This document shows positions 12,181 through 35,099 of a stretch of DNA of 64,000 bases, piece by piece; the stretch's first letter is position 1, and each line of letters opens with the position of its first letter. The translations under genes and the position numbers were made by a program. The stretch covers positions 4,898,001-4,962,000 of the forward strand of contig CM074762.1 in assembly GCA_037355855.1 (NCBI GenBank), in the 5' to 3' direction. The notes below the pieces were generated by a model. The model was given only the letters and a program-made list of their open reading frames with translations, had not been told where the DNA came from and did no database searches. This DNA is from Pseudo-nitzschia pungens. Taxonomy: Eukaryota > Bacillariophyta > Bacillariophyceae > Bacillariales > Bacillariaceae.

Positions 12181-12199
12181 TACATGAGAATATTGTTAA

Positions 12200-12830: not shown

Positions 12831-12834
12831 TATC

Positions 12835-14760: not shown

Positions 14761-14764
14761 GGTG

Positions 14765-16569: not shown

Positions 16570-16728
16570 GGGGAAGGTTTCTTGCGAGAATCGTCTTGTT
16601 CTCTGGCTTCCATAACAACTTGTATTGCCGATTCTGTTACGACTTTTAATTGGTCGAGAGATATGGTATTGATGTCGAGTCCCAGTGTCCGATTTTGCAC
16701 TTCATCAAACCATAAACACAGTTCCTCG
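16570..16728 (-). pseudogene. Gene C of element Z, middle piece between X and Y
   Basis: 159 bp encoding a stretch that aligns with gene C of Y (pattern LxxQLKVVTESAIQVV here against VSQRSLEKYIRNVKQAI there), then a basic DSRKKPSP tail. On its upstream side it meets the left terminus of Y at 16729, on its downstream side the right terminus of X. Its frame continues from the piece at 32694-34276 if Y is skipped with no duplicated bases. Confidence 0.8.
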
Positions 16729-16750
16729 CGTCTAATAACTGATTTTCGAC

Positions 16751-18171
16751 CATTTTGACCCGTTTCGACCACCCCCCTCCTTTTTTTTAGACGTTTTTAG
16801 CTCCAATATTTTTATTATTTGGAGCGAAATCGCCTTTCTTAAGCTCGAATTATTATTTTTTGGCTCCAAAAATTAATTTTTTGCTCCAAACTCGAATATT
16901 TGGGTCGAAAATTAACAGCCGGGGTCGAAATTCGTTGTTGAACCACCATTAGGGTTAATGGTTGTAACGCTGTAGCGCTGTGTCCCTGTATCCCTGTAGC
17001 GCTGTGTCCCTGTATCCCTGTAGCGCTGTAGCGCTGTATCCCCTTTATCGCTGTAGCGCTGTAGTGCAGTGCTAACTCCAAAGATACTAGGGTTGTCGCG
17101 TACGATTTGTACCAGTTGTACATACCCCGGGTATAGCATCCGCACTAATACAGTGTAGCTGAGTGCTACAAGGTTAGGGTTGCTAATGATAGTACGAAAT
17201 ATTAGATATGTTAACCTACCATGCTACCATGCTAAGATACTATGCTACCGCAGGGGTCGGGTCACTGGTGTACAATATGTACTATGACCGGACGCCTGAC
17301 CCAGACAGTTACCCAACGCGCTAGCACACCTTCGTTATTAAATAACGGGAGCTACCCTACTACGCTACTCCGTACGCTACCCGTATAATACAGTACTGGA
17401 GCTACAGAGCTCTATTATCTACGAGTTATCAGAACGATACGATACAGAGCTGAGCTGCGCTGATCCCCTGTAGCGCTGTAGCGCTGTATAGAGCTACGCT
17501 ACGCTACTCCGCACACACTACGCTACCCGTAGAATACAGTACTGGAGCTACAGAGCTCTGTTATTTTACGAGTTAGCGGAGAACTGTCACGATACCGTAC
17601 GATACAGAGCTGAGCTGCGCTGATCCCCTGTAGCGCTGTATCCCCTGTAGCGCTGTATCCCCTGCAGCGCTGTATCCCCTGCAGCGCTGTATCCCCTTCA
17701 GCGCTGTAGCGCTGTATCCCCTTCAGCGCTGTAGCAGCAACGCGTCGATAATACAGGGGGGGGGACTGCAAGCAGCAAGCAGCAGCAACGCGTCGATAAT
17801 ACATGGGTGGGACTGTTTGGGCCGGGTATCCCGTCGTGGTACATATTATACACCAATGACCCTACCCCTGCGGTAGCATAGTATCTTAGCATGGTATCAT
17901 AGTAGGTTAGCATCTTTCAGTATCTCGTAGCCTTAGCAACCCTAACGTACTACTACTACGTATTTGGTAACAGTGTAGCTGAGTGCTACAAGGTTAGGGT
18001 TGCTAATGCTACGAAATACTGGAGATGATAACCTACCATGATACCATTTCTAAGATACTATGGTAAGGTTACCGCCGGGGTCGGGTCATCAGGTGTCGCA
18101 TGATCATAGTACAATAAAGCGTGTACAATAAAGCCAGTACATTAAAGTTAAGGGTTGTAGACGCTATGTCA
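16751..18171. repeat. Left arm of Y, GCTGTAGCGCTG repeats
   Basis: No gene. Copies of GTAGCGCTGTATCCC at 16965-17065 and 17465-17735. Duplicated blocks include CAGTACTGGAGCTACAGAGCTCT (17391, 17536) and CAGTGTAGCTGAGTGCTACA (17151, 17969). Two satellite units related to the X array lie at 17735-17810. The complementary GCTACAGC repeat lies at 35390-35470 near the right end of Z, matching the arm next to gene E. Confidence 0.7.
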
Positions 18172-18780
18172 TTACGACAATATGTCCCCTTTTTGGGGCC
18201 TTCCCGTAAGGTTACCGGTATTTTCTCCGGTATTTTCTCCTCGGACACATTGGCATTCCACCCAAATCTTCGACTTAAAATGCTCCATTTGAAACGAATG
18301 AATAACGGCTCCACGTTCAATAATCAATCTCACCTCCTCAGGCAGGTAATTCTCGATACGGATCTCACGGACGATTTCTCTTCCCATGTAGCACCTGACA
18401 ATGTAATTTGCATCCTGGTGATCCATAGGATTAGTAACATCCTTCTTCAACTCAAACGTGAAGGTAATCCTGTACGTCGGTACAAAATATCCTATATCAT
18501 CCCTTTTGGGGTATTTGACCACAACCTCGAACCCATCATCCCTGTACTCTAAATTGCGAATAATCATACCTGTCTCCAGATCCCTGTCAATACCTTCGAT
18601 CTCGCAATAATTTTTGTGATCAAAATGAATATCCAAAGTACCGAAAACTCCCTCTCCGAAATGGAAGCTGAATGGGGTGGTGCGGGTGGTTTGTGCGCTG
18701 TACCTATGAGGTCTATTTATGAATATGACCTTCATCTCATCTTGCCCTGCAGTTCCCGTTGTCGCTTCCTCGTCGCACAT
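18172..18780 (-). CDS. Gene E of element Y, unknown protein
   Basis: 202 aa. The ORF extends upstream to 18858, but the start at 18780 (MCDEE) fits the paralogue at 35100, which begins 11 residues before the shared D-x-MKV block. Conserved features: MKV(I/V)F(I/V)NRP, then TPFSF.(F/V)GE..FG..DI.(F/I)DH..YC..EGI. Further on are alternating hydrophobic residues (YRITFTFEL, YIVRCYMGREIVREIRIENY) typical of a beta-rich fold. No catalytic motif recognised. It is the gene nearest the left end of Y and is transcribed towards that end. Function unknown; it could act with the transposase on the element end, but nothing in the sequence shows that. Confidence 0.75.
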   Translation of the reverse strand: MCDEEATTGTAGQDEMKVIFINRPHRYSAQTTRTTPFSFHFGEGVFGTLDIHFDHKNYCEIEGIDRDLETGMIIRNLEYRDDGFEVVVKYPKRDDIGYFVPTYRITFTFELKKDVTNPMDHQDANYIVRCYMGREIVREIRIENYLPEEVRLIIERGAVIHSFQMEHFKSKIWVECQCVRGENTGENTGNLTGRPQKGDILS

Positions 18781-19019
18781 AATGATCAACGTCTCCACCC
18801 GTTTTGAATAATGTGGTCGTCGGGAACACCCTTTTTCAATAATCACGTTTTCCTTCACCGTATTTTTTCAATAATCACGTTTTCCTTCACCGTATGTTCT
18901 GTTGTATGTTTACAAATTTCGTTTTCTACTCATATCCCTGTACAAATTGTACACGAATCTTTGATTGGATATAATTCTACAATTGATTCCACCATTCTAC
19001 GATCCTACGAACCATTGAA

Positions 19020-19065
19020 TTAGCCAATAAAAATATTCGATTTCCCATTACAAACTGTACAGGAA
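19020..19065 (+). promoter_or_regulatory. Conserved CCAAT / GTACA box (Y copy)
   Basis: GCCAATAAAAATATTCGATTT followed by CCATTACAAACTGTACAGG, homologous to the boxes in X and Z. It lies between genes E and B. A second GTACAAATTGTAC palindrome and TGATTGG lie at 18940-18968, 160-190 bp upstream of gene E. Confidence 0.5.
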
Positions 19066-19079
19066 AACCAGTAAGGTTT

Positions 19080-19745
19080 CTACGAGTACGAGTACCGTCG
19101 ATCGATCCGTCGCTCCTTTCTGGAACAACCAAAAATCAATCGATCCGTCCGATCAATCGATCCGTCGCTCCATTTCATAACATCCGAAACTCGATTGATC
19201 CGTCGCTCTTTTCTGGAACAACCGAAAATCAATCGATCCCTCGCTCCATTTCATAACATCCGAAACTCGATTGATCCGTCGCTCCTTTCTGGAACAACCG
19301 AAATTCAATCGATCCCTCGCTCCATTTCATAACATCCGAAACTCGATTGATCCGTCGCTCCTTTCTGGAACAACCGAAAATCAATCGATCCCTCGCTCCA
19401 TTTCATAACATCCGAAACTCGATTGATCCGTCGCTTCTTTCTGGAACAACCGAAAATCAATCGATCCCTCGCTCCATTTCATAACATCCGAAACTCGATT
19501 GATCCGTCGCTTCTTTCTGGTAACCGACCCATCGCTCCATTTCGTAACATCCAAAAATCACTCGATCGATCGATCCGTCGCTTCTTTCTGGAACAACTGA
19601 AAATCAATCGATCCCTCGCTCCATTTCATAACATCCAAAACTTGATCGATCCGTCGCTCCTTTCTGGAACAACCGAACACCCGACAATCGATCGATCCGT
19701 CACTCCATTCTGGAACATCGATCGATCCGTCGCTATTCATCATCA
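19080..19745 (+). repeat. About 76-bp tandem array downstream of gene B (Y)
   Basis: Eight or so units alternating TCCGTCGCTCCTTTCTGGAA with CTCGCTCCATTTCATAACAT and ending in GAAACTCGATTGA or CGAAAATCAATCGA. The same core (GTCGCTCC...CAACAACCGAAAATCG), in the same orientation, flanks gene B on its other side (21715-22545). Confidence 0.85.
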
Positions 19746-19768
19746 TTCTTAGCATCCTCGTCATCATC

Positions 19769-21700
19769 TTAAGGAGGAGCGTTGCCTCCAGCATTAGCAT
19801 TGGCTGCAGCGATCGCAGCATTTGCTTGGTCCAAAGCATCCTGTGCATTGGCTGTCTCTTCCCGAGCTGCCAAGACCGCAGCTTGAGTTAATGTTGCCTC
19901 GTCCCGTGCCTCATTCCTCTCTTCCTGAGTGGCATTTGGATTTGCTTCCACTGCCATCCAACGGGCGAACGCTGCTTGCCACTCTGCTTGTCTCTGAGCC
20001 TCCACTGCGGCTGCCTGTTCATGATTCACTTCTGCGGCTCGTCTTCGTCTTCTTTCTCTACCCCAGTCCAACAAGCAGAACACAAATGTTTCCGGACCGC
20101 GTCCCCCCCTTCCCATGCCATATTTGGTGTAACAATATGTGTGCTTAGTTGCAAAACCGATCTTGTTCTCTATACTGTAAACAGTCTCACCATCCTGTTT
20201 ACCAAATGAGTCATAATGAATGCCGACTGGATGCTGGACAAGGGTCGTCGAATTGAGGGAAGAAAACTGATACAAAATGTCACCGATCTCCTGCCTTCTT
20301 GCCATTGCTATAGCTTTCCTGTGGTTTCTCAACTCCCGATCCACTGCAAGTGGCACCACATTCAGACCATTGACCATGTTTCCTAATTGTCTTAGCAGCA
20401 AGGCACTCACTATCTTCGCCTCAGTGAATGGTTGAAAGAATTTATAATCAGAAAACATATCCTCCGTGATAGGCCCAATCTGCCCACCAAACTGGGGGTT
20501 GCAATACGCAAAGTGAACAGCCTTCCCTTGCCTGTTTATGTAAAAAACATGAATTGTTTGCCCGTCCGGAACAACAAATGCCCCCCGCCCGGACCTCGGT
20601 GTCACAATTGGGTTGTCGAGCATCCGGAAGAGTGCTCTAGTTGGTCCTCTGTAGACACCACTACTGCCACCACTTCTCATCTGTTCTATGTTGTTATTTG
20701 CAGTCATGGACTCAACTTTCTTAAACAACGAGTGAACCTCTTTCTGGGTCATCTGGAGTCGATCGCTTCCGTGATAGAATCTTGCCAACAACAGGTTGCA
20801 CTTCTGCTTCCCTTCTTGTTCATTTTTGGGACCGAATGATCCAACAATAAGTGTCACATGGCATTTCTTCAACCTGTCACGACACGTGAACACTCTTGAT
20901 TGTTTAATTCTTTCCATTGTGTACTCTGGCGTCTCCTTTATCTTGTTCTTGCACATCGTTCCGTTAATTATGATCAGTTGCACGATGTAAGTTCTTGTTC
21001 TGCTGGGATCCACTATATCAGAGCACTCAATTTTCTTAACTTCTGTTTTAACCGTGTCCGTGAGCTTCTTTGCTGTTATTCCTGATTCTGCTATCTGACG
21101 TGCAAGCTCATATCCCACCACAAAGTGTTTCACTCCTGGCAGTTCAGGTTCCTTGCCCAATCCATGGCAGTCAACAATGTTTTCTGAATTGAAAGGAGTG
21201 TCAATCAGCAAGTCATACTCTGGTAGGACAAGGAACCCATCATACTTTAACCGAACCGCGCGACTCGCAACATCAACGAAGTGCCGATGGGACCTCACCA
21301 CTTGCTCCTTTTGGGCATAGTAGATACATCCATGACAAGTAGATACTACCCCGATATTGTTTTCTAGCGATTGTCTCATCTGCTGTAGCACCGAGGGCAG
21401 TGTAGTCTTCTCCTTGTCCATTCGGTTGAACAGTAGTTGCAGACATCTTCTGCAAGCAAAATTGCCACAGGACGTGCATGTTATGCCGTCGTCCGTCATC
21501 GGACAGCTTGTGGTTCCTTTTGCAGTTCGTTTTCCTTTCTGTGTCAGTGTTGTGACCGAACCAAGAATACAGTGGCTAGGTTGGCACAAGGTGCTCTCGC
21601 TCAAGATTTTCTGTTGGATCCTTCTGTTGCATCTACCACCCCTTAGTTCCGCGTTGGTCTCCTCAGTGTCACCAATCTTTCGCCTGCTGGAACGTGTCAT
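19769..21700 (-). CDS. Gene B of element Y, Cys-containing transposon protein
   Basis: 643 aa, intact, paralogue of 8332-10425; function not recognised. Start MTRS is shared. The Cys region (about residues 38-90) contains ITCTSCGNFACRRCLQLL, a C-x2-C-x4-C-x2-C arrangement, and STCHGC follows near residue 121. Conserved core blocks are SGGSSGVYRGPTRALF, NPQFGGQIGPI, FFQPFTEAKIVSALLLRQL, ELRNHRKAIA and YGMGRGGRGPETFVFCLLDWG. An Ala/Gln/Glu-rich C-terminus (about 565-640) is probably helical; it lacks the Ser-Asp tail of the Z copy. It is bracketed by related tandem arrays on both sides, with module M upstream. A zinc-binding accessory protein is the safest description. Confidence 0.9.
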   Translation of the reverse strand: MTRSSRRKIGDTEETNAELRGGRCNRRIQQKILSESTLCQPSHCILGSVTTLTQKGKRTAKGTTSCPMTDDGITCTSCGNFACRRCLQLLFNRMDKEKTTLPSVLQQMRQSLENNIGVVSTCHGCIYYAQKEQVVRSHRHFVDVASRAVRLKYDGFLVLPEYDLLIDTPFNSENIVDCHGLGKEPELPGVKHFVVGYELARQIAESGITAKKLTDTVKTEVKKIECSDIVDPSRTRTYIVQLIIINGTMCKNKIKETPEYTMERIKQSRVFTCRDRLKKCHVTLIVGSFGPKNEQEGKQKCNLLLARFYHGSDRLQMTQKEVHSLFKKVESMTANNNIEQMRSGGSSGVYRGPTRALFRMLDNPIVTPRSGRGAFVVPDGQTIHVFYINRQGKAVHFAYCNPQFGGQIGPITEDMFSDYKFFQPFTEAKIVSALLLRQLGNMVNGLNVVPLAVDRELRNHRKAIAMARRQEIGDILYQFSSLNSTTLVQHPVGIHYDSFGKQDGETVYSIENKIGFATKHTYCYTKYGMGRGGRGPETFVFCLLDWGRERRRRRAAEVNHEQAAAVEAQRQAEWQAAFARWMAVEANPNATQEERNEARDEATLTQAAVLAAREETANAQDALDQANAAIAAANANAGGNAPP

Positions 21701-21714
21701 TGTGGTGATCCTTT

Positions 21715-22545
21715 CTGCAACAACCTTGGTTTCGATCCGTCGATCCTGTTCTCAACAACTGAAAAATGTAGAGGTATTTCTTCCGGGCCGTCGCTCCTGT
21801 TCTCAAAAACCGAAAATCGTAGGCGTCGCTCCTGTTCTGAACAACCGAAAATTGTTCTCCTGTTCTGAACAACCGAAAATCGTAGTGGTATTGCGTTCAA
21901 TCCGTCGCTCCTGTACTCAACAACCGAAAATCGTATTTCGTTCGATCCGTCGCTCCTGTACTCAACAACCGAAAATCGTATTTCGTTCGATCCGTCGCTC
22001 CTGTACTCAACAACCGAACGTAGGGGTATTTCGTCCGGTCCGTCGCTCCTGTACCCAACAACCAAAAATCGTAGGGGTATTTGCTCCTTTCTGCAACAAC
22101 CTTGGTTTTGAACAGAAAATCGTAGGGTTATTCAAACAACCCTCGTCGTATTTCTATCCGTCGCTCCTTTCTGGAACAAGCTTCTCCTTCTTGGCCTGGG
22201 TACGATCCGTCGCTCCTGTTCTCAACAACCTTGGTTTCGTTCGTTCCGTCGCTCCTGTACTCAACAACCGGAAATCGTAGGGGTATTTCGTTCGTTCCGT
22301 CGCTCCTGTACTCAACAACCGGAAATCGTAGGCGTCGCTCCTGTACTCAACAACCGGAAATCGTAGGCGTCGCTCCTGTACTCAACAACCGGAAATCGTA
22401 GGCGTCGCTCCTGTAGTCGCTCCTGTACTCAACAAACGAAAATCGTAGGGGGTATTACGTTCAATCCGTCGCTCCTGCACTCAACAACCAAAAATCGTAG
22501 GCGTCGCTCCTGTAATCAACAACCGAATGAAAAAATTTTGGTGTT
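21715..22545 (+). repeat. Tandem array upstream of gene B (Y)
   Basis: Units of GTCGCTCCTGTACTCAACAA plus CCG(A/G)AAATCGTAG, about 37-50 bp long, with the spacer varying between GGGGTATTTCGTTCGATCC and none. Confidence 0.85.
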
Positions 22546-22914
22546 AGTTATGATTCTAGAGGAAACAGACAGTAGTACTTGATAAAAGAAAAAAGAAGAA
22601 AGTATTTGTATTAAACTATGTCCCGTCGTTCGTCTGTGAAGCGATCGCACCGTGCATCGATCGTACCCGGCGTCGTTCCTGTCCGAAGCGATCGTACCCG
22701 CCGTTGTCCCTGTCCGAAGCGATCGTACCTTCCTCTTTATCGTCGCCGTCGCTCCCCTATGGAAAGACGAAAGTAAAAACAAGAACAAACATCCTGTTAG
22801 AAGCGATCGTAGCAATCGTACCCCCGTCGTCACTCTCTGGAGCGATCGTACCTTCGTCGGCGTCCGTCTCCGCACAAATCGGTTGTGATTTTCGTCTTCC
22901 TTTTCGTTGTTTTC
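22546..22914 (+). repeat. GAAGCGATCGTACC repeats
   Basis: About seven units around GAAGCGATCGTACC(C)(G/C)(T/C)CGT between 22637 and 22865, the same family as 12485-12815 in X. No gene. Confidence 0.7.
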
Positions 22915-23360
22915 AATATCAGTACGTCGTATATCTGGGTAAGCCAGGTAGTTCCAGGACTTCCACACACCCGACCTCTGTGATATGAATCAGACAACAG
23001 AGCAGAAAGCAAGAGCGGCCGTTCTCAAGCTGTCCACAGCATGTGTGTCTTTTTCAAAAGAGATGGTCCCGGTGCCTGATGGCTAGGTTAAACTGGACCG
23101 GCCAGAATATTCCGATGCAAGAATTGAAACGAAAATGAAAAATGAAAATGAAAAATTATGACACATCCCATGAGGGAGATGTGGGGCGGAAAATTCGCCT
23201 CGGAAAATGACGTAAGAAAAAAAGACAGAAATGTACGTACGATGCGGTACGAAGTATACATGCTGTACTAAATATGCTGAAAAAAAAAATGACACGGTAC
23301 ATTACGGTACGCTGTACACTGTACGTATGTTACTAGTACATAATTTTTGGCGCGAAGTAG
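22915..23360 (+). other. Conserved non-coding module M (Y copy)
   Basis: See the copies at 6925-7460 and 12835-13335. It ends in GGCGCGAAGTAG. It lies between the divergent genes B and C, about 1.2 kb upstream of B. Confidence 0.6.
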
Positions 23361-23399
23361 CATCATACACATCCTACTATATTGTACTAGTGTCTTCCC

Positions 23400-23482
23400 C
23401 ACAATGAGCCAATCAAAAAATTCCTTACGAATGAACCAATCAAAAAATTTCTTACGAATGAACCAATCAAAAATTTAGAAAA
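23400..23482 (+). promoter_or_regulatory. Three direct CCAATCA repeats upstream of gene C
   Basis: Three units of (G/A)CCAATCAAAAAATT with CTTACGAATGA spacers, about 410-480 bp upstream of gene C of Y. The CCAAT orientation points towards C. In Z a CCAATCA lies about 475 bp upstream of gene C as well. CCAAT boxes are common eukaryotic promoter elements; a role here is inferred. Confidence 0.5.
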
Positions 23483-23885
23483 TATTTTTAAGTGCAAGGA
23501 GTAGTGTCGTTTGAATTTGAATTGGAAGGAGTTGCTTCGTTTACGGTTTAAAACTGATGTCAAAGTTTAAAGGCCGGGCCGTTTCACAATGGGTTTTTTT
23601 TTGGAAATTGTTCGTTTCGAGCAAAGGCCCACGGTGGGGGGGAAACAACCCACGGTGGGGGAAATGGAAGTGCATCATCGTGACAACAAGTTACATCAAT
23701 TCCGTGAACAGTTGGGGATGAGCTCAACCAGTTGAACCATTGCCGGAAAGGTTTTTAAGATGAATCATCACAATTCAATCGGCTTGGAGATTGTCGTTAG
23801 ATGCATCGTTCCCTTCTACAACAATCGAATCGGTCTCTATCTTTAACAATCAATCCAACAATCAGGGAATACCTGCAGATACATC

Positions 23886-25259
23886 ATGGCAAGGCACAAA
23901 AAGAAAAAAGGCACTACATTTCCTGCGTCAGGACGCCCCACAAATAGAAGAAGATCTACCCGTTCCGCACCAGAAGAGGAAACTGAAAGCCCAACGTCCG
24001 AACCATCACCACGATCTGAAAGTGAGTCTGAGTCTTCAGCAGATGGATGGCCTATACCTCCAAGTCTGCCATCCAAAAATCCATTACCAGACTGGCCCGT
24101 AGCTGTGCTTCAGCTCTACGAACAGGAGCAACAACATGGAGATTCTAGCAATTTGGAGGATACGACTGCCACTCCCGTCGGTTCCAACAATTCGGACCAT
24201 TCCACTGCCCCAACAATGGACGACACTACCAACAGTGATGGTGCCAATAACAACAGTTCAAATAACTCGGATCGTTCCACTGCCCCAACCATGGGTGACA
24301 ATTCGAACAATACTAATGGTACCAAAGGGGACTATAATGATCGCAAGTTCCGAAAGCAGCAGAGGTTGAACCGGAAAATAAATCACAGGGCCGAATCTGT
24401 CATTGAGATGAAAGACAGTACTTCCATGAAGAAGTTTAAAATGGTGGCGACAAACGTAAAAGTACTGCAGACACTCACCACCTTTGAGGATGAAAAAAAA
24501 CACCTGGAATGTCCTGGCTCTATGCATGGTTTATTCTGCTACGACGAAGTTGTTGAGAAACCACATTTAAAACCAACTGCCACAACCGAGAATGAGGACT
24601 ACAAGAGAAAGGATGAGCCAAAACTAACATTCCTTGTGGGTCCAGGTTTTAATGCCTATCGGCGTTCCTTTGGAGAACGCTTGATCGATGCTGGCAATTG
24701 GTTCGTAAACAATTCATTTGATCCCAACAAACCAGAAACCAAGGTAGATTGGTTCTTGAAAAATTCATTTGATCCTAACAAACCAGAAACCCACGTCGGA
24801 CCTTATCACACAGAAAGTGTACGACACCATTTCAGGGCAGTTTTTGGTGCTAGAGGGCGAGGTTCAGATGAGCAGGTGGAAGAAGCGCATGCAAGAATTG
24901 AGGAGGCAGATCAGCTTTTGACAGAGGAACAAATCGAAACCATTATTAGTGGTGAAACTAATGGTATGACAATGCAACAAAGATTCCACTTCCGTGGTAT
25001 GGTATACACTCAGATCACAGATGACGACCCGACCGCTACTACTGTGTCACAAAGGAGTTTGGAAAAGTACATCCGAAACGTGAAACAAGCCATCAAAGGG
25101 AAGAAGAAGAAGAAAAAAAAAGGGGGGGGGAAGAAGGGCAAGAAGAGCTCAACATCAAGCCTTCCGTTCGACCAGAGGAAAAAGCCACCACCAGGATCGG
25201 GTCCGGGAAAAAAGCCACCACCAGGATCGAATCCGGGAAAGAAGCCACCACCTAAGTAA
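23886..25259 (+). CDS. Gene C of element Y, acidic Ser/Asn-rich transposon protein
   Basis: 457 aa, intact; function not recognised. Begins M-x-(R/K)-(H)-K, as does the Z copy. Residues 1-160 are polar and disordered (basic start, Ser/Glu patch, Asn-Asn-Ser repeats). A conserved core from about 185 to 410 contains LTTFEDEKKH, the block LTFLVGPGFNA, LIDAGNWFVNNS and YHTESVRHHF, all with clear counterparts in the Z copy. A duplicated SFDPNKPET segment occurs near residues 278 and 298. The tail has poly-Lys followed by three KKPPPG-type units. The gene is divergent from B and followed by A on the same strand. A structural or DNA-associated role is possible but not shown. Confidence 0.85.
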   Translation: MARHKKKKGTTFPASGRPTNRRRSTRSAPEEETESPTSEPSPRSESESESSADGWPIPPSLPSKNPLPDWPVAVLQLYEQEQQHGDSSNLEDTTATPVGSNNSDHSTAPTMDDTTNSDGANNNSSNNSDRSTAPTMGDNSNNTNGTKGDYNDRKFRKQQRLNRKINHRAESVIEMKDSTSMKKFKMVATNVKVLQTLTTFEDEKKHLECPGSMHGLFCYDEVVEKPHLKPTATTENEDYKRKDEPKLTFLVGPGFNAYRRSFGERLIDAGNWFVNNSFDPNKPETKVDWFLKNSFDPNKPETHVGPYHTESVRHHFRAVFGARGRGSDEQVEEAHARIEEADQLLTEEQIETIISGETNGMTMQQRFHFRGMVYTQITDDDPTATTVSQRSLEKYIRNVKQAIKGKKKKKKKGGGKKGKKSSTSSLPFDQRKKPPPGSGPGKKPPPGSNPGKKPPPK

Positions 25260-25379
25260 GACAGAGGATGGGTATCAAAACATTGTAAAAATGGATCAAA
25301 TAATTTAGGAATTAGTAGTAACAATTATGATAATATTATAATAAATCAATAAAGATGTACTCTTCCAACCCAAAAAAAC

Positions 25380-26130
25380 CATAAACTTCTTACTACCAGG
25401 AGTTATAGTATGATGGATGTAAGGTCTGCTTTCTGAGTAAAATTCCCAGCACCAGAGTTTACACAACAGACTGTGCATATTTCCTGTGTATGGGTCAGCA
25501 CACTGTCACAAATTTTTTTGTATTCCACACTGAATAATGGTGTGTACTATATGCATCTATTAGAAAAGTAAATAGGAATAAACTTCTTGCTACCAATTAT
25601 ATTATGAATGTAAGAAGTTCTGATTTGTCAGAAAAATTCTGAGGAACCGAGTTTACACCACAGAAAAGGCATATTTGCTGTGTATGGGTCGCAGTGACTA
25701 TCATTTGTTGTATTCCACACTGAATAATGGTGAGTATAAAATGAATAAACTTGCTACCAATTATATTATGGATGTAAGTTCTGCTTTCTCAGTAAAATTC
25801 CAACCACCATAGTTTACACAACAGCAGAAAGTGCATATTTCCTCTGTATGGGTCACACTGTCACAAATTTTTTGTATTCCACACTGAATAATGGTGAGTA
25901 TATGCATCTATAAGAATAGTAAATAGGAATAAACTTCTTGCTACCAATTTTATTATGAATGTAACGAGTTCTGATTTTTCAGAAAAATCATCACTACCCG
26001 AGTTAACACCACAGAAAATGCATATTTCCTGTTTGTTGTATTCCACACTGCTGCATCTATTATAGTAGTAAAAAGGAATAAACTTGCTACCAATTATGTA
26101 AAATTCCTCCCAGTACACCACAGAAAGTGC
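25380..26130 (+). repeat. About 170-190-bp tandem repeats between C and A (Y)
   Basis: Four to five degrading units sharing AATAAACTTCTTGCTACCAA, a TTTCTCAGTAAAATTC-type block, GTTTACACAACAGA, GCATATTTCCTGTGTATGGG and TTGTATTCCACACTGAATAA. The last copy is partial. The remaining flanks (25260-25379, 26131-26639) are AT-rich with no gene; the A promoter is presumably here. Confidence 0.8.
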
Positions 26131-26639
26131 ATGTTTCTTGTCTATGGGTCACATTTTCCTGCACTTTTTTGTCTTTTATTGTTAAAAATGCACGGATGCA
26201 CAAGTGGCTATGTGAGATAATGGTGATTGTTTGGTTACTAGTATGTCCAAGAATATGAAATAGAATAAAACATATTTCTTTTGAAGGATTCCATTAATAC
26301 ATTAATCATGAAACTCTAAAATAATATACACATAAAGCAAGCACAAAATAGGACAAAAAGTGATAGAAATGGAAGTGGTCTGAACTTAGAGAAACACAGA
26401 AGAACACAGCCGCCGGTGTCACCACTACGCCACAATTCGCTTAACAACACCATGAGTTTTTTTCTTCAAAAACTCATCTTTGAATGCAAGAAGTACTGTA
26501 CTCAAGGACCATCGTTCCGTGCTGATTGTGTTGTCGACATTCCTTGCTTGACACGACACGGTAGTGGTGAAATTGATTATAACAACATAATGAATATTGA
26601 TGTCGTCTCAGACCATGAAATCATTATCTTCCTGTTGAC

Positions 26640-29600
26640 GTGATGCCAAACAAAAGAAAGTATACCGATGGTGTTAAAATCCAGGCAGACTTCTACTGTC
26701 TGGCATGTTTTAAGAACACGAACACCCTGAAAAAATTTCGTGGGTACAAAAGAGTGTCTAAAAACGATCCCTCGTCTTTCAGATATGTATGCAGCGGGCT
26801 TACAAGCCACTTGACCAAATCAGGTGAATGCAGCAGTTACTACTATCACAATGTAGTAGATAAAACAGCCGCGTCTGTTTTCGCAACCCACCACACGGGT
26901 GGAGGTGCGGGCCGACACAACCCATCCAGTTTTTCATTGACGATGACAGGAAACGGTCCCCAGGGAGAAGCGGCATCCAATAGTATTTCGACCGGGAACC
27001 AGAATCAGGATTTAAATAGGCAAGTGGTACCAGATGTTCTGGTACCACCTATACAGCGCAATGTTATACAATCCTATTTAGCAGCAGCGGACGTAGATGA
27101 AGAGGAAGACAATGACGAAGGTACGCTGATGGATGATGCAAATGAACAAAAAAGTACAGAACCGGAGGCGCTCAATAACATGGAACAGATGTTCCGTTCC
27201 CACCATATACCTGATACAACTCAGCAACTACACGCTGAAATCAAGCTTATGAATCTAATGTCAAGGCATCGCTTACAATTAGGTACATTTCAAACCATAA
27301 TGAATTGGGCAAAGGAATGTCAAAACCTCCCTGGTTTTGATTTCCGTACGGCGAAAATCAGAAAACGTGAAGTTGTTTTCCAAGAAATACAGAAGCATGT
27401 CAAAATACCCAACACAAGATTTGAACCGAAGATAGTTACTTGGCTACCAGACAAGAAACCAGCTCAGATATACGTTCGTGATTTTAAAGATGCACTGTAT
27501 TCTCTTCTATCGAATAGTGAGCTGATGTGCGACGGAAATCTCTCCTTTCCAAGTAGAACAACTCCGCTGCAGCCAGACAGTGATCCTGCCATAACGGACG
27601 ACACATACATTTCAGAGCTTCATCATGGAACTTGGTGGAAGGACTCATGGAGGTTGATGTGCCAGCAAAACACAGAGCCTTCTGAAATTTTGGTACCACT
27701 GATTTTTTACATGGACGGGATAAGCCTGGATGCGCATGGCAGATTGTCTCTTACTCCTCTCAATATGACCCTGGGTATTTTCAGTGTAGAGACAAGAAAA
27801 CGCCCAGAAGCTTGGACTACTATTTACTTCCATCCAGACAGCGAATGGGAAAACACTCATCATTCGAGGAAAGCTACAGCGACCGAAGGGGTACAGAACA
27901 TTCATAATGCGATTGCCGTTGCACTAGAATCGTTGAGGGAAATTGATGAAGGAGGTGATGGAATTCTGTGGGATTACCTTCCGTATGCAGGGAAAGTATG
28001 GAGTGTTAGAATGAAATTTGCGATTGCATATGTTGTAGGAGATACCGAACTCCATGACAAGCTATGTGGAAAATATGGATCACGATCGGCCAGGGTTAAA
28101 AAACTATGCAGGCACTGTGATTGTGCAACAACTGAGATCAATAGGCCAGCATCACAACAACATGTAAAACTGTGGAAACCGGAAGACTTCGAAATACCGA
28201 TCGGAGAAGATGCAACGGATTATTTCAAACAACAATCACACCACCGTATCCAGAATGCATTCCACAGTTTAAATTTTGGGTCAAATGTCAATAACATACA
28301 CCTGGCAACACCAGGTGAAACACTACATATGCATCAATTAGGGGTAGCCAGGCGATGTGTGGAAGCAATAGAACAACAGTTGGTAAACACTAGTGTTGAG
28401 TGTAAATACGCCACGAACCTGAACAAAGGGAGGGCAACGATGGAAGCACTTGGTTATATTGCTCAAAGATATGGTGCGCTCTTATCAAGACAATCCGACC
28501 GGGATTTTCCTAGAACCAAATTTGGAACGAGCATTATGTCCATTGCGAAAAAAGAAGGAAAAGACTATAGCGGTATGCTATTGTGCATCCTTGTAGCACT
28601 GACGTCGGAAGGTGGCCAGGAGATAGTGGGTGATCTGAGATTTGCAACTACACAAATTGACGTCATTGAACAAATCATATCAATGGAAGAGTTTCTCAAA
28701 CACGGACGAATTACTCCCAAAGGTCTCCGGAATCTACCAAAAATGATAATTCATTTTATTAACACAATCAATACTGCATGTATTCGGAAAGGAATGGGGA
28801 CGAGACTCATCAAGAATCATCTGTATTTTCACATCCCGGAGTACATAAAGTTGTGGGGGCATCCACTAGGGTGGGATAGTAGCTTCAGTGAGAGTCATCA
28901 CAAGACAGAGGTGAAGGCTCCAGCAAAGAATACACAACAAAACGCAGCGACATTGATTAGCCAAACAACAAAACGACAAACGGAAAAGTTGCTGTTGCGT
29001 ACTGCCAATATGTGTTATGGGTTGGAGGAAAAGCATGAAGACCCGACCGCGAAACCAAGACCGAAGAAAGCCGGCTCGCTATTCAAAATACACCGGGACG
29101 GCAACGAAAAGAAGGGAAGCATGACCTGGCATAGAACATCAAATAAGGAAAAACCGTTTTTGCCATCAGTAATTCTGGATTTTGTCTGCGATTCGGTGTT
29201 GCCGTTACTCGTTGATGACACATCGGTAGAAGGATTCACAGAACACAATCGATGGGATTCAACAAACGAGGTCGGATATTTATTTCGATGCCATCCCTCC
29301 TACAGATCGACATCTGGGCAAGTGAATGCCGTTTGGATGGATTGGGTAGTGATCAGTGTTGATTCGGAAGCAATCCCGTGTCAGATTCTGTGTTTTCTTG
29401 AACTAGATAACCTCAAACAGCCAACGGGTAGAGTGAATAATTACCCAATTGAAAATGAAGGTCTTTATGCCGTCGTTAGAAAATTCAAGAAAGAGCCCAC
29501 AAGGTCGAAGTCAAGATTTGTTTCCAAGGGTACTTTGGAAGAAGGTTTCTTTGTATTCAACACAGACGCAATTTTATCAGATATTGCTGTTGTGCCAGAG

Positions 29601-29774
29601 TTGAATAAAGATGGAAGTATCTCGGCTGCAAACAGGTGGCTAGTAGTGGCCAATCGTGGTGCTTGGTTGGACAGTTTTGAAGAAAGGAATGAGAGCCTGG
29701 CTTCTACGTCATATGCAACACTTTACAGTCAATGTCAATTGGCAAAAGACATGGACGAAACAGAGGAAGAGTGA
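26640..29774 (+). CDS. Gene A of element Y, intact CACTA/Plavaka/KDZ-type DDE transposase
   Basis: 1044 aa (start could also be the second Met). It should cut and join the element ends in the nucleus. An N-terminal zinc motif (FYCLACFKN, then H and C near LTKSGECSSYY) is followed by an acidic linker. The block LVPLIFYMDGISLDAHG (about 350-366) holds the likely first Asp. GDTELHDKLCGKY...KLCRHC (about 466-496) holds the likely second Asp and a Cys/His knuckle as in CACTA-type transposases. The block LWGHPLGWDSSFSESHHKT (about 737-756) holds the likely Glu. A C-terminal part carries HPSYRSTSGQVNAVWMDWV. Placement in this superfamily rests on recognising these motifs. Gene D follows on the same strand, suggesting joint expression. 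Confidence 0.88.
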   Translation: MMPNKRKYTDGVKIQADFYCLACFKNTNTLKKFRGYKRVSKNDPSSFRYVCSGLTSHLTKSGECSSYYYHNVVDKTAASVFATHHTGGGAGRHNPSSFSLTMTGNGPQGEAASNSISTGNQNQDLNRQVVPDVLVPPIQRNVIQSYLAAADVDEEEDNDEGTLMDDANEQKSTEPEALNNMEQMFRSHHIPDTTQQLHAEIKLMNLMSRHRLQLGTFQTIMNWAKECQNLPGFDFRTAKIRKREVVFQEIQKHVKIPNTRFEPKIVTWLPDKKPAQIYVRDFKDALYSLLSNSELMCDGNLSFPSRTTPLQPDSDPAITDDTYISELHHGTWWKDSWRLMCQQNTEPSEILVPLIFYMDGISLDAHGRLSLTPLNMTLGIFSVETRKRPEAWTTIYFHPDSEWENTHHSRKATATEGVQNIHNAIAVALESLREIDEGGDGILWDYLPYAGKVWSVRMKFAIAYVVGDTELHDKLCGKYGSRSARVKKLCRHCDCATTEINRPASQQHVKLWKPEDFEIPIGEDATDYFKQQSHHRIQNAFHSLNFGSNVNNIHLATPGETLHMHQLGVARRCVEAIEQQLVNTSVECKYATNLNKGRATMEALGYIAQRYGALLSRQSDRDFPRTKFGTSIMSIAKKEGKDYSGMLLCILVALTSEGGQEIVGDLRFATTQIDVIEQIISMEEFLKHGRITPKGLRNLPKMIIHFINTINTACIRKGMGTRLIKNHLYFHIPEYIKLWGHPLGWDSSFSESHHKTEVKAPAKNTQQNAATLISQTTKRQTEKLLLRTANMCYGLEEKHEDPTAKPRPKKAGSLFKIHRDGNEKKGSMTWHRTSNKEKPFLPSVILDFVCDSVLPLLVDDTSVEGFTEHNRWDSTNEVGYLFRCHPSYRSTSGQVNAVWMDWVVISVDSEAIPCQILCFLELDNLKQPTGRVNNYPIENEGLYAVVRKFKKEPTRSKSRFVSKGTLEEGFFVFNTDAILSDIAVVPELNKDGSISAANRWLVVANRGAWLDSFEERNESLASTSYATLYSQCQLAKDMDETEEE

Positions 29775-30226
29775 GTAAGAAATAGTAGTTACTTTTTTTT
29801 TTAATGTAAAAAACTAAGATAGTCCCTACTTCCCATTTTTTTTTTTGGTAATAGCTAAGATAGTCCCTAATTCGCAAATTCATCGCGACGCGACCGCCCC
29901 AAAAAAACGTTACTATGTCAGGTACAGAAATTATAAGAGAGCAAAATTGGCGCGGGCGAGTACGCTTCCACCTTGAGAGGATGCAAAGCTAACAGAGAAT
30001 ATCATGTAGAGGATAAGTACGTTTTTTGGAAAAAATAAAATGGCGCGGCATGATGGCTTGCATTGATAGAGGAAGCCGTCCAGTAATTATTGGATGTGGA
30101 CGTGTGGACGTGATTTTTGTTGTAATTCTTCGATCTTGATTTTTGCGGAAAGTCTTCATAATTGAGTAACACAACTGATTGAAAACAACTTTTCAGAAAT
30201 TCCACTAAATTACAACATTAATCACC
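29775..30226. other. A-D spacer of element Y
   Basis: No gene. Contains TAAGATAGTCCCTA twice (29814 and 29863) around a T run, then AT-rich sequence up to the start of D. Confidence 0.55.
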
Positions 30227-31879
30227 ATGAATAGAGAAGCATTGCAACTGACTAAAGCTATTGCAGAAATTAGTCCAGTCTCAGCTGATGTGAACAGTCC
30301 AAGAAAGAATCACAGTGGATTATCCTTACCCGATCCCAATGTGATAACACCAACTGTGGCATCGGCGCGGAAGCAGCAGCAGCCGTCGACGAAGAAGCAG
30401 CATCAGCCGTCGAAGAAGCAGCAGCATCGGAAAACGAAGCACACAAATAAACCCCAATCCACCAAAACTTCGATAGACAATGTGACCTTCAGCACAAGAG
30501 GGAATGTGAACTTCAACGCAAACGGGAACGTTATTGTCGCAGAGAATGCAAATATGACAGAGCCGAGGACGGTGCGGAACAGTGAATGGGACGACAGAGT
30601 CGCAGAAACAGAGAGACGATTAGCTGAAATGGAGAAACGACTTGAAGAAAAAGAGAAACGACTTGACGAAAGGGAGAGAAAACTGGTTGAAAAAGAGACA
30701 GAAGGACAACGAACGGAAAAGGAAAAAGGCAACGTCGATAAGGAAGAAATCGAGCGGAAACTTAGGATCCATCAAGCGACGGTGTTGAGCCAAAAGGTGA
30801 TTTTCAGAGTCATAAATTTGTGGATAAGAAAGAGTCGATCCAAATTCTGAAAACAATGATGAAGGAGGAAAAGCTTCAACTACCGGAAGGCGTTGCCAAA
30901 AACGAATTCTATGAATACAACTGGATGATAATCAGAAGGGCGGTAAATGACTTGAGAACTGCGGTGCAGTCTTTAGTTAGGAAGCATTGGATTGGTGAGT
31001 GCTAATGCTACTAATGTAAAATGATGTGGGAATGATTATTATAATGAGCAAGTGGATGCCAATACTAACAAGCACACGGTTACCGTTCCTGTTACAGATG
31101 ACTTCAAGAAGGCAAAAACGAGGCGAAATGAATGGGTGCTGCCTGAAGGATTTCCAGGCACGCTAAAGCTTCTCGAGACGGAGGATGATGATGCTCCCGT
31201 CCTGCATCCGAGCTATAGGAAGAAGGAAGGAGAAGATGACTTCTATTATTTTGCGACCCGCATCTTGGCTGCATTCCTGCCATCGGTTTTTTGCCCAAAA
31301 TGGCAAAAAACAAAATTGATTGGTGAAATATATTCCGTGAGTGATGAGGCATTTGCATTGGTTATAATTCATAACGAATATGCAAGATGGGTGAATTACT
31401 TGGAAAGAGTTGATGACAAAAGTATTCCTGAGGTTAGCAAAAAATATTGTGACCCGAGAAGTGGAAACGAGGAGGGGTGGTCGGAAGATGGAATAGAAAT
31501 GTATGAAAGAGTGTGTGAAGAACTGATGGATATCCGCTTCCCTGGCTACAACCTAGGGGGAAAAGAAGACAAAGATAAAGACAAAGACAAGGAAGAAGAC
31601 GAAGACAAGGAAGAAGACGAAGCCGAGGAAGAAGAGGAGGAAGACATCGAGGCGAGGGAAAAAGCAAAAATCGAGGCGAAAAGGCAAAAGGAAAAAGTGG
31701 AAGATTTTGAAATCGCCATGATGAGACGAATCCAAATGGCTTCGAAACGAAAAGGTGGAGCTGGAGGTATGGCATTACAATCAGATTCAGCTGGTAGCAA
31801 AACGAAGCGAAAGAAGAGGAGAAAGCATATTGATCCAATAATGAGTAATGAGAGAAGGAAGTGGTTAGAGGAATTGTAA
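30227..31879 (+). CDS. Gene D of element Y, spliced coiled-coil protein with acidic insert
   Basis: Read as three segments. The first (30227 to at most 30850) starts MNREALQL as in the Z copy, is Gln/Lys-rich, then has a Thr/Asn stretch and a strong Glu/Arg heptad coiled coil. The second (30766/30808-30994) is in another frame and includes VDKKESIQILKTMMKEEKL and WMIIRRAVNDLR. The third (31098-31879) has the folded part (RNEWVLPEGFPGTLKLLE, FYYFATRILAAFLPSVF, FALVIIHNEYARW), an Asp/Lys/Glu repeat and a basic end. An intron at 30995-31097 joins segments two and three in frame. The shift between one and two is unresolved: an acceptor TTTTCAG at 30807 or a one-base error are both possible. WxLPEGF near a coiled coil hints at DNA or protein binding; function unknown. 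Confidence 0.7.
30995..31097 (+). other. Intron in gene D
   Basis: 103 bp, donor GTGAGT, CTAAT branch-like sequences near 31001 and 31010, acceptor GTTACAG. It splits a codon after its first base and restores GAT-GAC-TTC (D-D-F) in frame. Confidence 0.75.
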
Positions 31880-31959
31880 ATGGATGGTAATATTGAGGTT
31901 CGTTAGTGATAGTTTAAATTAAAAGCAAATTGTGATTGAAATACCATAGGGTAGACAAG

Positions 31960-32590
31960 ATGATCGTTGCGTGTCAAAATGATGGGCGTTGCCTCTAAAA
32001 TTGATGGGGGTTCCGTCTAGAAACGATGGGCATTGCCTCTAAAAATGATGGGGGTAGGCTATAAAAATGATGGGCATTGCCTCTTGAAATGATGGGGGTA
32101 GGCTATAAAAATGATGGGCGTTGCCTCATAAATTAATGGGCGGTGCCTCTAAAAATGACGGGCGTTGCCTCTTGAAATAATGGACATTGCCTCTAAAAAT
32201 GATGGGGGTAGGCTATAAAAATGATGGGCGTTGCCTCATAAATTAATGGGCGGTGCCTCTAAAAATGACGGGCGTTGCCTCATATATTAATGGGCGGTGC
32301 CTCTAAAAATGATGGGCGTGGCCTCATAAATTAATGGGAGTTGCCCCATAAATTAATGGGCGTTGCCTCATAAATTAATGGGCGTTGCCTCTAAAAATGA
32401 TGGACGTTGACTCATAAATTAATGGGCGTTGCCTCCAAAATTAATGGGCGGTGCCTCGAAAATTAATGGGCGGTGCCTCGAAAATTAATGGGCGTCGTTG
32501 CCTCCAAAATTAATGGGCGGTGCCTCCAAAATTAATGGGCGTTGGCTCGAAAATTGATGGGCGTTGGCTCGAAAATATATGTGGTACGGG
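31960..32590 (+). repeat. ATGGGCGTTGCCTC tandem array in the right arm of Y
   Basis: About twenty-five units of 22-31 bp, each with ATGATGGGCGTTGCCTC or AATTAATGGGCGGTGCCTC and a short A-rich linker. It lies between gene D and the right terminus; 31880-31959 and 32591-32671 hold nothing else recognisable. Confidence 0.85.
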
Positions 32591-32671
32591 ACTGAAAAAA
32601 TTGAGCCAGGGACAAGGAATTGGTCAAATATTTGACCCCAAAAGGACCCGGCACAAAAATTTTTGACCCAC

Positions 32672-32693
32672 GTCTAAAATCAGTTATCAGACG
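32672..32693 (-). repeat. Right terminal inverted repeat of Y
   Basis: Complement of the left end with two mismatches in 22 bases. Its TGA serves as a false stop for the interrupted gene C of Z. Confidence 0.8.
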
Positions 32694-34276
32694 TCATCGT
32701 TCATCCGCATGGCGTGGCACTGGTGGTCGTAGAAGAGAACAAACTGTTCGTCTGACCAATCCGAAAATAAATCTCTTTTTTCCTTTAGGATTTTTTTTTT
32801 TTTAATAGCAGCAGGGGAGAGTCGGATACGACCAAAATGCCGAAGCTGGTATTCTGAACAACTGTGGGTGTAGTAAAGTCCATTCCTTTCTTTGCAGGAG
32901 TTGTTAATGAACCATTTGCCAGCTTTGATTAATTCCTTCCCAATCAATTCTCTTTTCGCGTCAAACCCTGGACCAATCAGAAATGTCATTAATGGACCAC
33001 CTGTTCGCTTATACCCATTTGCGTTGTGTTTTGAATCACTTGGTACTGGGATGACTTCATCAAATGCCGCCGTGAAGTGAATGCAAGAGGGAAATGTCTC
33101 GTATTGTGACTCGTCTTCGAAGGTGCTGCATAACTGTGCTATTTTCGTGTGCCTCGCGAGAAGTTCAACCTTTCGAAGAACGGCGTCGTCCTTAAAGTTT
33201 GGGATGCTCTCGGCCCTTGTAGACTGTGTTCGCTTCAATCTCTTTTTCTTCTGGTCTTCGGGGTCATCGTTATCTTTGCTTTCATCATCAGTTTGAGGCG
33301 CAAATTCACTATCGGCGTCATCGTCGTCATTGTCAGAATGATTATTTTGCTTTTGTTCTTCTTCACCGGAGTCGACGGGATCGAAATGACTATTTTGCTT
33401 ATGATCTTCTTCACCGGAAGCGACGGCATTTTCTTCATTAACTTTTTTCGAATATAAATGGAAATAAGCATCGAGCAATTGAGAATTGGCAATCCCGGAT
33501 GCCCAAGATAATTTGGGGTCTGAAGGAGAATCTTCTTGGACTGAAACTTCTTGTTCATCGGAAGTTACTTCTTCGTTGGCACCGTCTTCGGCGTTGGAAC
33601 CGACTTCTTCGTTGGAACCGTCTTCTTCGTTGGAACTGACTTCTTCGTTGGAACTGACTTCTTCGTTGGAACTGACTTCTTCGTTGGAACTGACTTCTTT
33701 GTTGGAATCTCCTTCGTCTTCGTTGGAACCGTCTTCTGCGTTGTAACCTTCATCTTCGTTGGAACCTTCATCTTCGACGGCATATTGATCTTCTTCGTTG
33801 GAACCTTCTTCTTCGTTGGAACCTTCATCTTCTTTGGAATCTCCTTCGTCTTCGTTGGAACCGTCTTCTGCGTTGTAACCTTCGTCTTCGTTGGAACCTT
33901 CATCTTCGACGGCATATTGATCTTCTTCGTTGGGGTTGGGGTTGTTGCATTCCATGTTTCGAATCTTCGTCTTCGGAGGAGCATCGTCGGCTTCGGAAGA
34001 ATCTTCGGATTCGACGGAATCATCTTCTCCTGCTGCTACTTTCCGACATTCATCCCAAAATTTATCAAGAATAGACAAGCGAAGGTTCCGTTCTTCGCGA
34101 GTGGGAGGAGAAGGAGAAGGAGATCTGCTACGCGGCGGTGAAGGAGATCTGCTACGCGGCGGTGAAGGGGATCTGCTACGCGGCGGTGAAGGGGATCTGT
34201 TACTCGGAGGTGAGTTTGTGCGTCGAGAGGGACCGGAGGACTTTCTTGCTGTTTGTTTCCTGTGACGTTTCACCAT
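32694..34276 (-). pseudogene. Gene C of element Z, N-terminal and core piece
   Basis: 527 codons from MVKRHRKQ, homologous to the MARHKKKK start of the Y copy, although the ORF is open to 34351. An N-terminal RS-like block of SPSPPRSR units is encoded by a 24-bp tandem repeat (34085-34205). Then comes a long acidic tract of SNEE(D/V)-type units, encoded by repeats at 33550-33960. The core follows: STFEDESQYE, MTFLIGPGFDA, LIKAGKWFINNS. It is cut at 32694 by Y. Together with 16570-16728 and 10518-10607 it would make a protein of about 609 aa, longer than the Y copy because of the expanded acidic tract. Confidence 0.85.
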
Positions 34277-35099
34277 GGTGGGACCTAGAAATTTATGATG
34301 AACGAAATTTATGATGAAAAACTGGGTTTTGATTGATGGAAAGTGGGACACTTGAAGGTGTACGAGATTTGGTTTATTTTATTTTATTTTATTTTTTGAT
34401 CGTGGAGTATTTGTGAACAGAAACCAAAAAATAATGATACCGTGGGTACCTTAGTCGTAATTGGTGGGACTCGGACCGAAATGGTGAAACCGAATTGGTC
34501 GGAGTGTGGAACGTTTATAAACGTCGGAGTGTGGAACGTTTACGTCGGAGTGTGGAATGTTTATAAAAACGTCGAAATGTTGAAGAGTAAGACGAGTTGA
34601 GCAGTGGAGAATAACGAGTTGAGAAATGGAGAGTGACAACTTGAACAATGGAGAGAGACGAGTTAGTACTGTAGAGTAGCGGAGCGTAAAGAGATCGCAA
34701 AATCCAGGTAGAGCACTGCTGGTAGAAATTGTACTGGAAAATATAATTTTTGATTGGTTAATTCAGTGGAGTAACATAAAGTACGATGGACGATGGCTTA
34801 AACGTTGCGTAGCGGTTTTAAAAAGGATCGGCCGTGACATTTCCGATCTGCCGTGACATTTCCAATCGGCTGTGACAATTCCACGTTATGTGGAATTCGG
34901 CGTGGAAACATTTCTCGTTTAGTGAAGTTGATTAAATGTTGTGATCGTGAAACCAAAGAATTTACGCTGAGAAACTTGTAGAGTGAATTGATGCTGAGAA
35001 ACATGTCAAGTATTTCGAATGGTGTGTTCAATTGTTATGAATTCATTAATTCCAGTTTGAAAAGTTTCAACGAATAATTTTTTAACACAAACAGACATT
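34277..35099. other. Divergent spacer between C and E of element Z
   Basis: No gene. Holds the CCAAT/GTACAA box on the minus strand (34712-34765), repeats of GGAGTGTGGAACGTTTA (34500-34560) and of GACGAGTTGAGNANTGGAGA (34595-34680), and three copies of GCCGTGACATTTCC-type sequence (34829-34880). Confidence 0.6.

Follow-up and report, generated by a model that had tools for sequence, protein, structure and literature searches.

Does the transposon found in this 64-kb stretch of Pseudo-nitzschia pungens DNA (the window) carry a fixed set of genes, or has it been rebuilt from exchangeable parts? The element, Y, lies inside gene D of another transposon, Z. A first-pass annotation had described it as a transposase gene (A) accompanied by four conserved genes, B, C, D and E, and all five open reading frames are present in the window. 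We compared Y with its relatives in the surveyed genome (G000, 66.9 Mb, 28 contigs; copies read from it are labelled L0nn). As read from these sequences, the slot between B and A is exchangeable: C and D (C+D) alternate there with another gene, F. The reading that we favour, with moderate confidence, is that Y is a chimeric Plavaka-like cut-and-paste transposon with exchangeable, probably anti-silencing, modules.

Y is one real element with matching ends, delimited as follows.

16729..32693, forward strand: transposon Y, whole element, 15,965 bp, inside gene D of element Z; defined by its ends, a 2-bp duplication, an empty site and 32 convergent end pairs in the genome
16729..16750, forward strand: left terminal inverted repeat CGTCTAATAACTGATTTTCGAC; its first 18 bases have 72 genome copies (control 0)
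16963..17735, no strand: left subterminal repeats of 8-, 17- and 24-bp units, CCCTGTAGCGCTGTATC; present in L070 too
31965..32576, no strand: right subterminal array of a 22-bp unit, about 28 copies, from repeat analysis
32672..32693, reverse strand: right terminal inverted repeat CGTCTGATAACTGATTTTAGAC; 23 bases, with 37 genome copies (control 0)

The left end begins CGTCTAATAACTGATTTTCGACC and the right end, read inward, CGTCTGATAACTGATTTTAGACG; the termini are CGTC..GACG. The 13-base end pattern given by the first-pass annotation is found at 32681-32693 on the reverse strand (CGTCTGATAACTG) and, with one mismatch, at 16729 on the forward strand (CGTCTAATAACTG). Allowing up to two mismatches, this pattern is not above chance within the window (11 matches versus 8.6 expected; 24 of 100 shuffles reach 11). 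Its exact form has 544 matches genome-wide, the reversed control 13. Furthermore, for 32 of the 37 right ends there is a left end in convergent orientation at most 27 kb away; in 1000 trials, random placement yielded 0.49 such pairs on average and never more than 4. The many copies that the annotation had named as support for its claim are thus present, with 72 left and 37 right long ends genome-wide forming the 32 convergent pairs. Its description of a complete transposon of about 16 kb with inverted termini agrees with the ends, the genome pairing and the empty site.

That empty site, which had likewise been named as a check, is supplied by L069, an uninterrupted copy of Z whose gene D reads AACGATGAGGAACTG. 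The window has AACGATGA, then Y, then C followed by GAGGAACTG, which amounts to a duplication of GA plus one extra base relative to L069. A first reading of the flanks (TCCTCG versus TCATCG) had suggested an insertion without target duplication, which the L069 comparison rules out. Because L069 shows the uninterrupted site, Y is an insertion in Z and both of its ends are those of a single element; along with the pairing of 32 of the 37 right ends, this settles the doubt, raised at the outset, that the ends might come from different elements. Duplications of 2 bp are found in all ten other Y pairs, both X1 pairs and all three Z pairs read at both ends (X1 is a related family described below). 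We consider the architecture of Y very well supported. The two parts into which Y splits its host gene are as follows.

32694..34378, reverse strand: gene D of element Z, 5' part, split by Y; from reading frames and the L069 comparison
16570..16728, reverse strand: gene D of element Z, other remaining part, an in-frame continuation; 16591-16724 corresponds to L069 3919-4052 at 98.5% identity

Z is interrupted in the window both by Y and by other insertions. The first-pass statement that B, C, D and E all recur in Z stands in part: A, C, D and part of B are inside the window, while the B of Z is a remnant (residues 8-68 only) and its E lies outside the window, at C5:4894779. One of the other insertions, beside Y at 10608-16569, is an X-family element with a 2-bp duplication GG and no matches for the five genes. 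It has two right ends, and the 430 bp that separate them (15581-16010) are identical, in inverse orientation, to 61557-61986; this stretch is a very recent capture of flanking DNA.

The gene content of Y in the window, between its subterminal repeats, is the following.

18175..18774, reverse strand: gene B, about 200 amino acids; 27 genome matches, of which 20 reach at least 90% identity; nothing above cut-off in Pfam and nothing at E<=5 in the PDB
18773..26296, no strand: exchangeable slot, occupied here by CD-alpha; its X1-like DNA spans about 19098-26269 and leaves 18773-19097 outside
19769..21700, reverse strand: gene C, 643 amino acids, with a Cys-rich N-terminal part (CxxC-x4-CxxC..CHxC); 63 genome matches; ratio of non-synonymous to synonymous substitution rates (dN/dS) 0.16-0.35
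23889..25259, forward strand: gene D, 456 amino acids; 90 genome matches; no Pfam or NCBIfam match at E<=1
26643..29774, forward strand: gene A, Plavaka-like transposase, 1043 amino acids; PF18759 match, conserved motifs, dN/dS 0.17-0.27
30227..31879, forward strand: gene E, coiled-coil N-terminal part and E domain, probably spliced; 129 genome matches in several families

E is split in the window into frames 30209-30850 and 31025-31879. Since its homologue in Z is a single frame of 427 amino acids containing both the coiled coil and the E domain, the two frames probably represent one spliced gene.

From joined tables of A, B, C, D and E matches and end positions, we distinguished four families, Y, X1, Z and W, to all of which only A and E are common. 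Y reads left end, B(-), slot, A(+), E(+), right end. X1, whose transposase is 57-58% identical to that of Y, reads A(+), C(-), D(+), E(+) between ends CGTCCGAAAACTG; Z, in its own orientation, reads B, D, C, A, E, with ends CGTCTGTTAACTG. W, at C1:3238451-3252887 (L075 and L089), combines ends CGTCTGATAACTG, an F of 62% identity, a transposase of 49% identity in inverse orientation and a distant E (38%).

The copy numbers that follow are lower bounds, since scoring covered the best 44 of 244 transposase candidates. Among 18 Y transposases, 13 have F (one of them broken, at C3:273579), four have C+D, one has a fragment of C only, and none has both cassettes. Among 25 X1 transposases, C+D is found within 13 kb in 22, D only in two, neither in one, and F in none; B occurs within 13 kb of a single one (52% identity). 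In favour of a conventional transposon whose five genes form a constant set, one could point to the five genes lying in order at C3:5639621-5655671 and again at C8:3374971-3390507, where no exact right end was found. This explanation is very unlikely given that 13 of 18 Y transposases have F and neither C nor D, and that 24 of 25 X1 copies lack a B match within 13 kb. The notion of four conserved partners therefore does not hold as a fixed set. For the X1 copy that lacks both C and D (C3:3594730), a further cassette was considered and rejected: L090 shows beta-type repeats by A, followed by a frame that we take to be a retrotransposon pol, and the cassette looks interrupted, not new. Beside this pol frame, L090 1974-3050 (C3) holds two adjoining frames that resemble a broken transposase of another superfamily, presumably piggyBac-like.

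The exchange can be read directly in copies whose bodies are nearly identical and bear different cassettes. In the Y copies without C+D that were read (L070, then L085 and L088), F lies between B and A as a frame of 417 amino acids. From about 26296 onward, the Y of the window is 99.0% identical to the F-type copy L011, and the bodies of the C+D copy L016 and the F-type copy L015 are 98.7% identical. The F sides of L011 and L014 are 99.6% identical; their bodies differ by 7%. The joins differ in position: the parents overlap by about 4 bases at L016 and about 2 at L011 (by eye, with 17 of 18 loci aligned), and L011 retains about 40 bases of the flank found in C+D copies. One further Y copy, L025 (C3:262945-279731), has a broken F followed by the tail usually found after D, and looks like an intermediate of cassette exchange.

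Copies that are up to 99% identical over 5 kb might be thought to have been joined wrongly during assembly, the chimeras being artefacts between near-identical repeats. We hold this to be the least probable explanation, as there are several chimeric copies with different joins on megabase contigs, the C+D copy at C3:5639621 and the F copies whose flanks were read each have their own 2-bp duplication, and Y occupies a verified insertion site in Z. Alternatively, the C+D and F cassettes could be independent mobile elements inserting into the slot, which would fit repeated exchange at a single place. However, the right-hand joins show no visible terminal repeats or target duplication and vary in position, with overlaps of 2-4 bp; moreover, F replaces C+D instead of being added to it, none of the 18 copies having both. 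We thus find independent insertion improbable.

The C+D cassette, about 7 kb in size, has a counterpart in X1. Between the window and the X1 locus L072, the gene-bearing blocks are 94-96% identical and the repeat arrays about 75-98%, and homology ends at 26269. Synonymous divergence (dS) between the two is 0.074 for C and 0.038 for D, whereas dS between the A of the window and that of the X1 copy L028 is saturated. This difference implies that the block was exchanged long after the transposases of the two families separated; the cassette has almost certainly passed between families. The starred branches in the tree of the 18 Y transposases force three changes of the C+D label. Within X1, two types of C are seen, alpha (93-97% identical to the C of the window) and beta (53-60%), requiring at least two changes in a tree of 11 of the 25 copies.

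Each cassette comes with its own repeated motif. The arrays of the C+D cassette in the window are the following.

19108..19660, reverse strand: cassette motif array adjoining C, made of 38-bp units in which GGAGCGACG reads in the direction of that gene; from a motif search
21789..22755, reverse strand: a further array of the cassette, in the interval separating C from D, with units of 35-45 bp; 16 of the 21 cassette copies of CGTCGCTCC are in 21752-23888

CGTCGCTCC is present in 21 copies in the C+D cassette, all on one strand and none inside C or D, and in 24 copies in the X1 locus L072; none was found in the rest of Y or in three F-type loci. The whole window has 24, with 0.45 expected. Genome-wide, GGAGCGACGGATC has 267 sites (control 0): among 100 sites listed, 85 are within 2.5 kb of C, all 85 on its strand and none inside it. 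The motif of the F cassette, GATACTTCTTCGATTGC, has 48 sites genome-wide (control 0), every one of them at most 700 bp downstream of F and on its strand, at 13 F genes. A beta-cassette motif has 135 sites (control 0).

Such same-orientation arrays in non-coding parts form, as far as sequence can tell, a VANC-like arrangement. In Arabidopsis, VANDAL elements encode the anti-silencing VANC proteins, whose short binding motifs are repeated in tandem and in one orientation in non-coding parts (PMC5735166). Both systems are multi-gene DNA transposons with an element-specific short tandem motif in one orientation outside coding sequence. They differ in that VANDAL has a Mutator-type transposase, and C, D and F fit no Pfam family above cut-off; the likeness is one of arrangement, seen from sequence alone.

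What the cassette proteins may do is suggested best by F. Residues H302, D304 and H354 are invariant in all nine F sequences, and this HxD..H spacing is that of Fe/2-oxoglutarate dioxygenases. A search of the nine members against Pfam at E<=10 gave weak matches around the last His: PhyH (0.058, P0004), and Cupin_2 (0.065) and AraC_binding (0.11), both in P0005. F may be an Fe/2-oxoglutarate dioxygenase-like protein. Pseudo-nitzschia multiseries has relatives of F (a 12-member cluster plus single ones), and others come from further sources. We also considered C as a second dioxygenase, and rejected it: C has an invariant H-x-D pair, but no later invariant His in three sequences.

The closest published parallel that we found is in fungal DNA transposons, which are reported to carry TET/JBP genes passed between transposon lineages, sometimes with no signature sequences at the ends of homology (PMC12730594). 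As there, an extra gene, here F with its HxD..H motif, has passed between lineages, in cases without end signatures. The present case differs in that F has no Tet_JBP match, and that blocks of several kb alternate in one slot along with their own motif arrays.

The other partners resist assignment, in keeping with the first-pass statement that B to E match no family. In Pfam, nothing above cut-off was found for B, C or D (weak matches are BAT at 0.2 for B, and DUF2102 at 0.017 and zf-RING_5 at 0.12 for C), and NCBIfam gave no match to them at E<=1; E has only weak coiled-coil or acidic-repeat matches in Pfam and NCBIfam. No credible match was found in PHROGs for B, C, D and the E of Z, nor in a PDB sequence search with B, C, F and the profiles A1, A2 and A3. 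Among the best 7996 candidates by common words, out of 5.8 billion proteins, C has one distant relative, P0001, at 29% identity. No relatives of A, C and F were found in the IMG/VR viral contigs, which leaves a viral origin unsupported in that set.

DNA transposons capture host DNA, and C, D and F might accordingly be passenger host genes taken up by chance; the neighbouring X element, with its 430-bp copy of a stretch 45 kb away, illustrates such capture, and constraint is weak on D and, within families, on F. Yet each of C, D, E and F is found in more than one family, at transposase identities of 49-70% between families, and dN/dS between families is 0.16-0.18 for C and 0.32-0.34 for F. Chance capture is thus a highly improbable explanation, and the earlier statement that B to E belong to mobile elements is borne out by their recurrence in other elements of the genome. 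Overall, dN/dS ratios (0.17-0.27 for A, 0.16-0.35 for C, 0.30 for one pair of E) indicate that A, C and E are maintained, as is F over longer times; the case is less clear for B and D.

We may propose the following mechanism for a chimeric Y with exchangeable modules. The transposase A would cut and join the ends of Y, with E as a possible accessory DNA-binding partner. During repair of the gap left by excision, synthesis may switch template to a related element, exchanging the cassette through joins at 2-4 bp of microhomology; we propose template switching because the overlaps are short and the joins read carry no signature. The cassettes themselves would be alternative self-targeting regulatory modules, most likely directed against host silencing, which is the least certain step. 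A cassette protein may recognize its own motif array, as VANC does in VANDAL, and F may act on DNA or chromatin as an Fe/2-oxoglutarate dioxygenase, as has been proposed for the TET/JBP genes of fungal transposons. By analogy, anti-silencing as the purpose of the cassettes is a tentative suggestion. With similar reserve, we may hypothesize a shared pool of self-recognition modules (C+D of two kinds, or F, each with its cognate array) that can be set between the same ends and transposase. Such a pool would let elements change the way they escape host silencing or recognize their kin.

The cassette genes might instead act in transposition itself, binding ends or assembling the complex as TnpA does in CACTA elements, with F and C+D as alternative helpers. 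In favour of this, repeat arrays also occur just inside the ends of Y, and of the 27 beta-motif sites on contig C1, 13 lie some 500 bp inward of X-family ends. On the other hand, the A-E body is nearly alike (98.7-99.0%) in copies with different cassettes, and in Y the tested motifs of C+D and F do not occur outside the cassette. We regard this alternative as rather unlikely, though it is the strongest of those considered.

Several observations weigh against exchangeable anti-silencing modules, or limit what can be made of them, beginning with the lower-bound copy numbers given above. Shuffled cassette labels need 3.8 changes on average on the Y tree, and 119 of 500 shuffles need as few as the real ones; labels thus do not cluster, which is also what one would expect if cassettes move freely. 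L012 and L013 have the cassette-side sequence of the window and, as the trees give no direction of exchange, gain and loss are both possible. Among the 100 GGAGCGACGGATC sites listed, 15 are farther than 2.5 kb from any match to C. On contig C1, 11 of the 27 beta sites are beside C, 13 are about 500 bp inside X-family ends, one is in both places and four in neither; the beta motif is therefore also subterminal, not confined to cassettes. The full-length member of F has no Pfam match at E<=1, unrelated Pfam families score about as well as PhyH, Cupin_2 and AraC_binding, and Tet_JBP is not among the matches of the nine members at E<=10, a search in which HMMER filters drop most matches above about 0.1. 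AlphaFold models were unusable, both for C (mean pLDDT, the predicted confidence score, of 40.5, run with two other sequences) and for an F relative (32.2, run with three others). Constraint is weak on B (dN/dS 0.22-0.71), D (0.50, one pair) and, within families, F (0.37-0.67). Finally, any function of B, C, D, E or F is so far putative.

Modular exchange of whole cassettes is familiar in phages and bacterial transposons; to our knowledge, it has been little described for eukaryotic cut-and-paste elements, the TET/JBP genes of fungi being the nearest case. In the titles and abstract openings of part of the literature on Plavaka, KDZ, CACTA, diatom transposons and anti-silencing, no account of the present elements was found. 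Here, the exchange can be followed between bodies that are 98.7-99.0% identical, which illustrates the rebuilding of such elements from parts. The pairing of cassette and array offers a protein-DNA hypothesis that can be tested directly. It would also bring separate evidence to the open problem of silencing escape by DNA transposons beyond plants and fungi.

The transposase had been assigned to a broad CACTA/Plavaka/KDZ type, of which the Plavaka part is retained: A matches the Pfam Plavaka family PF18759 (E 1.3e-7; 31.7 bits, cut-off 26.3). KDZ (Kyakuja, Dileera, Zisupton) identity is not supported, as no KDZ transposase match at E<=1 was found in a Pfam search of the window proteins and duplications are 2 bp, versus the 8 bp reported for Zisupton. 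The blocks YMDG, GDTELHDK, LCRHC, LHMHQLG and SESHHKTE of A are kept in aligned Y, Z and X1 copies. LCRHC provides the C(2)C motif between the second D and the last E; for H(3-4)H, the segments LHMHQLG and SESHHKTE are conserved, with a motif register that is ambiguous in the sequence. Target duplications of 2 bp (2 bp plus one base in the window copy) agree with the 2-3 bp of Plavaka and the 2-5 bp of the CMCT clade. A recent study places fungal Plavaka in the CMCT clade, with ends TGT..ACA (PlavakaA) or CATCA..TGATG (PlavakaB), and gives CA..TG ends for most of the clade (Kojima 2025, PMC12730594). The CGTC..GACG ends of Y fit none of these three. Y thus resembles fungal Plavaka in its profile match, its C(2)C motif after the second acidic residue and its 2-bp duplications, and differs in its ends, its extra genes B, C, D and E and its diatom host. 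Because profile, motif and duplication fit and the termini do not, A is classed, on its sequence features, only as Plavaka-like and not as a member of a named Plavaka group.

CACTA/En-Spm elements encode TnpA and TnpD, and have CACTA ends and a 3-bp target duplication. Y shares with them a related transposase class, subterminal repeats and an accessory protein next to the transposase; it differs from them in its ends and duplication, and E has no known relation to TnpA. We know of no exchangeable cassettes in CACTA/En-Spm.

Among the Y-type end pairs, eleven are 5.8-7.7 kb long, have no A-E match and represent long non-autonomous derivatives: C1:215067, C2:2568616, C3:2775686, C5:5130908, C7:3931844, C9:1440191, C9:3678382, C10:892111, C11:1912741, C3:68224-74780 and C3:85301-91857. 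All six whose flanks were read have 2-bp duplications. The last two are each exactly 6,557 bp, in the same orientation and 17,077 bp apart, and are probably a segmental duplication. Within the window, a near-terminus CTTCCGAAAACTG on the forward strand at 57682, near repeats shared in inverse orientation with 61816-62063, is possibly an old element end. A 25.4-kb Y copy at C1:3046357-3071785 contains E twice, at 3060377 and at 3070115; each is 99% identical to the E of the window.

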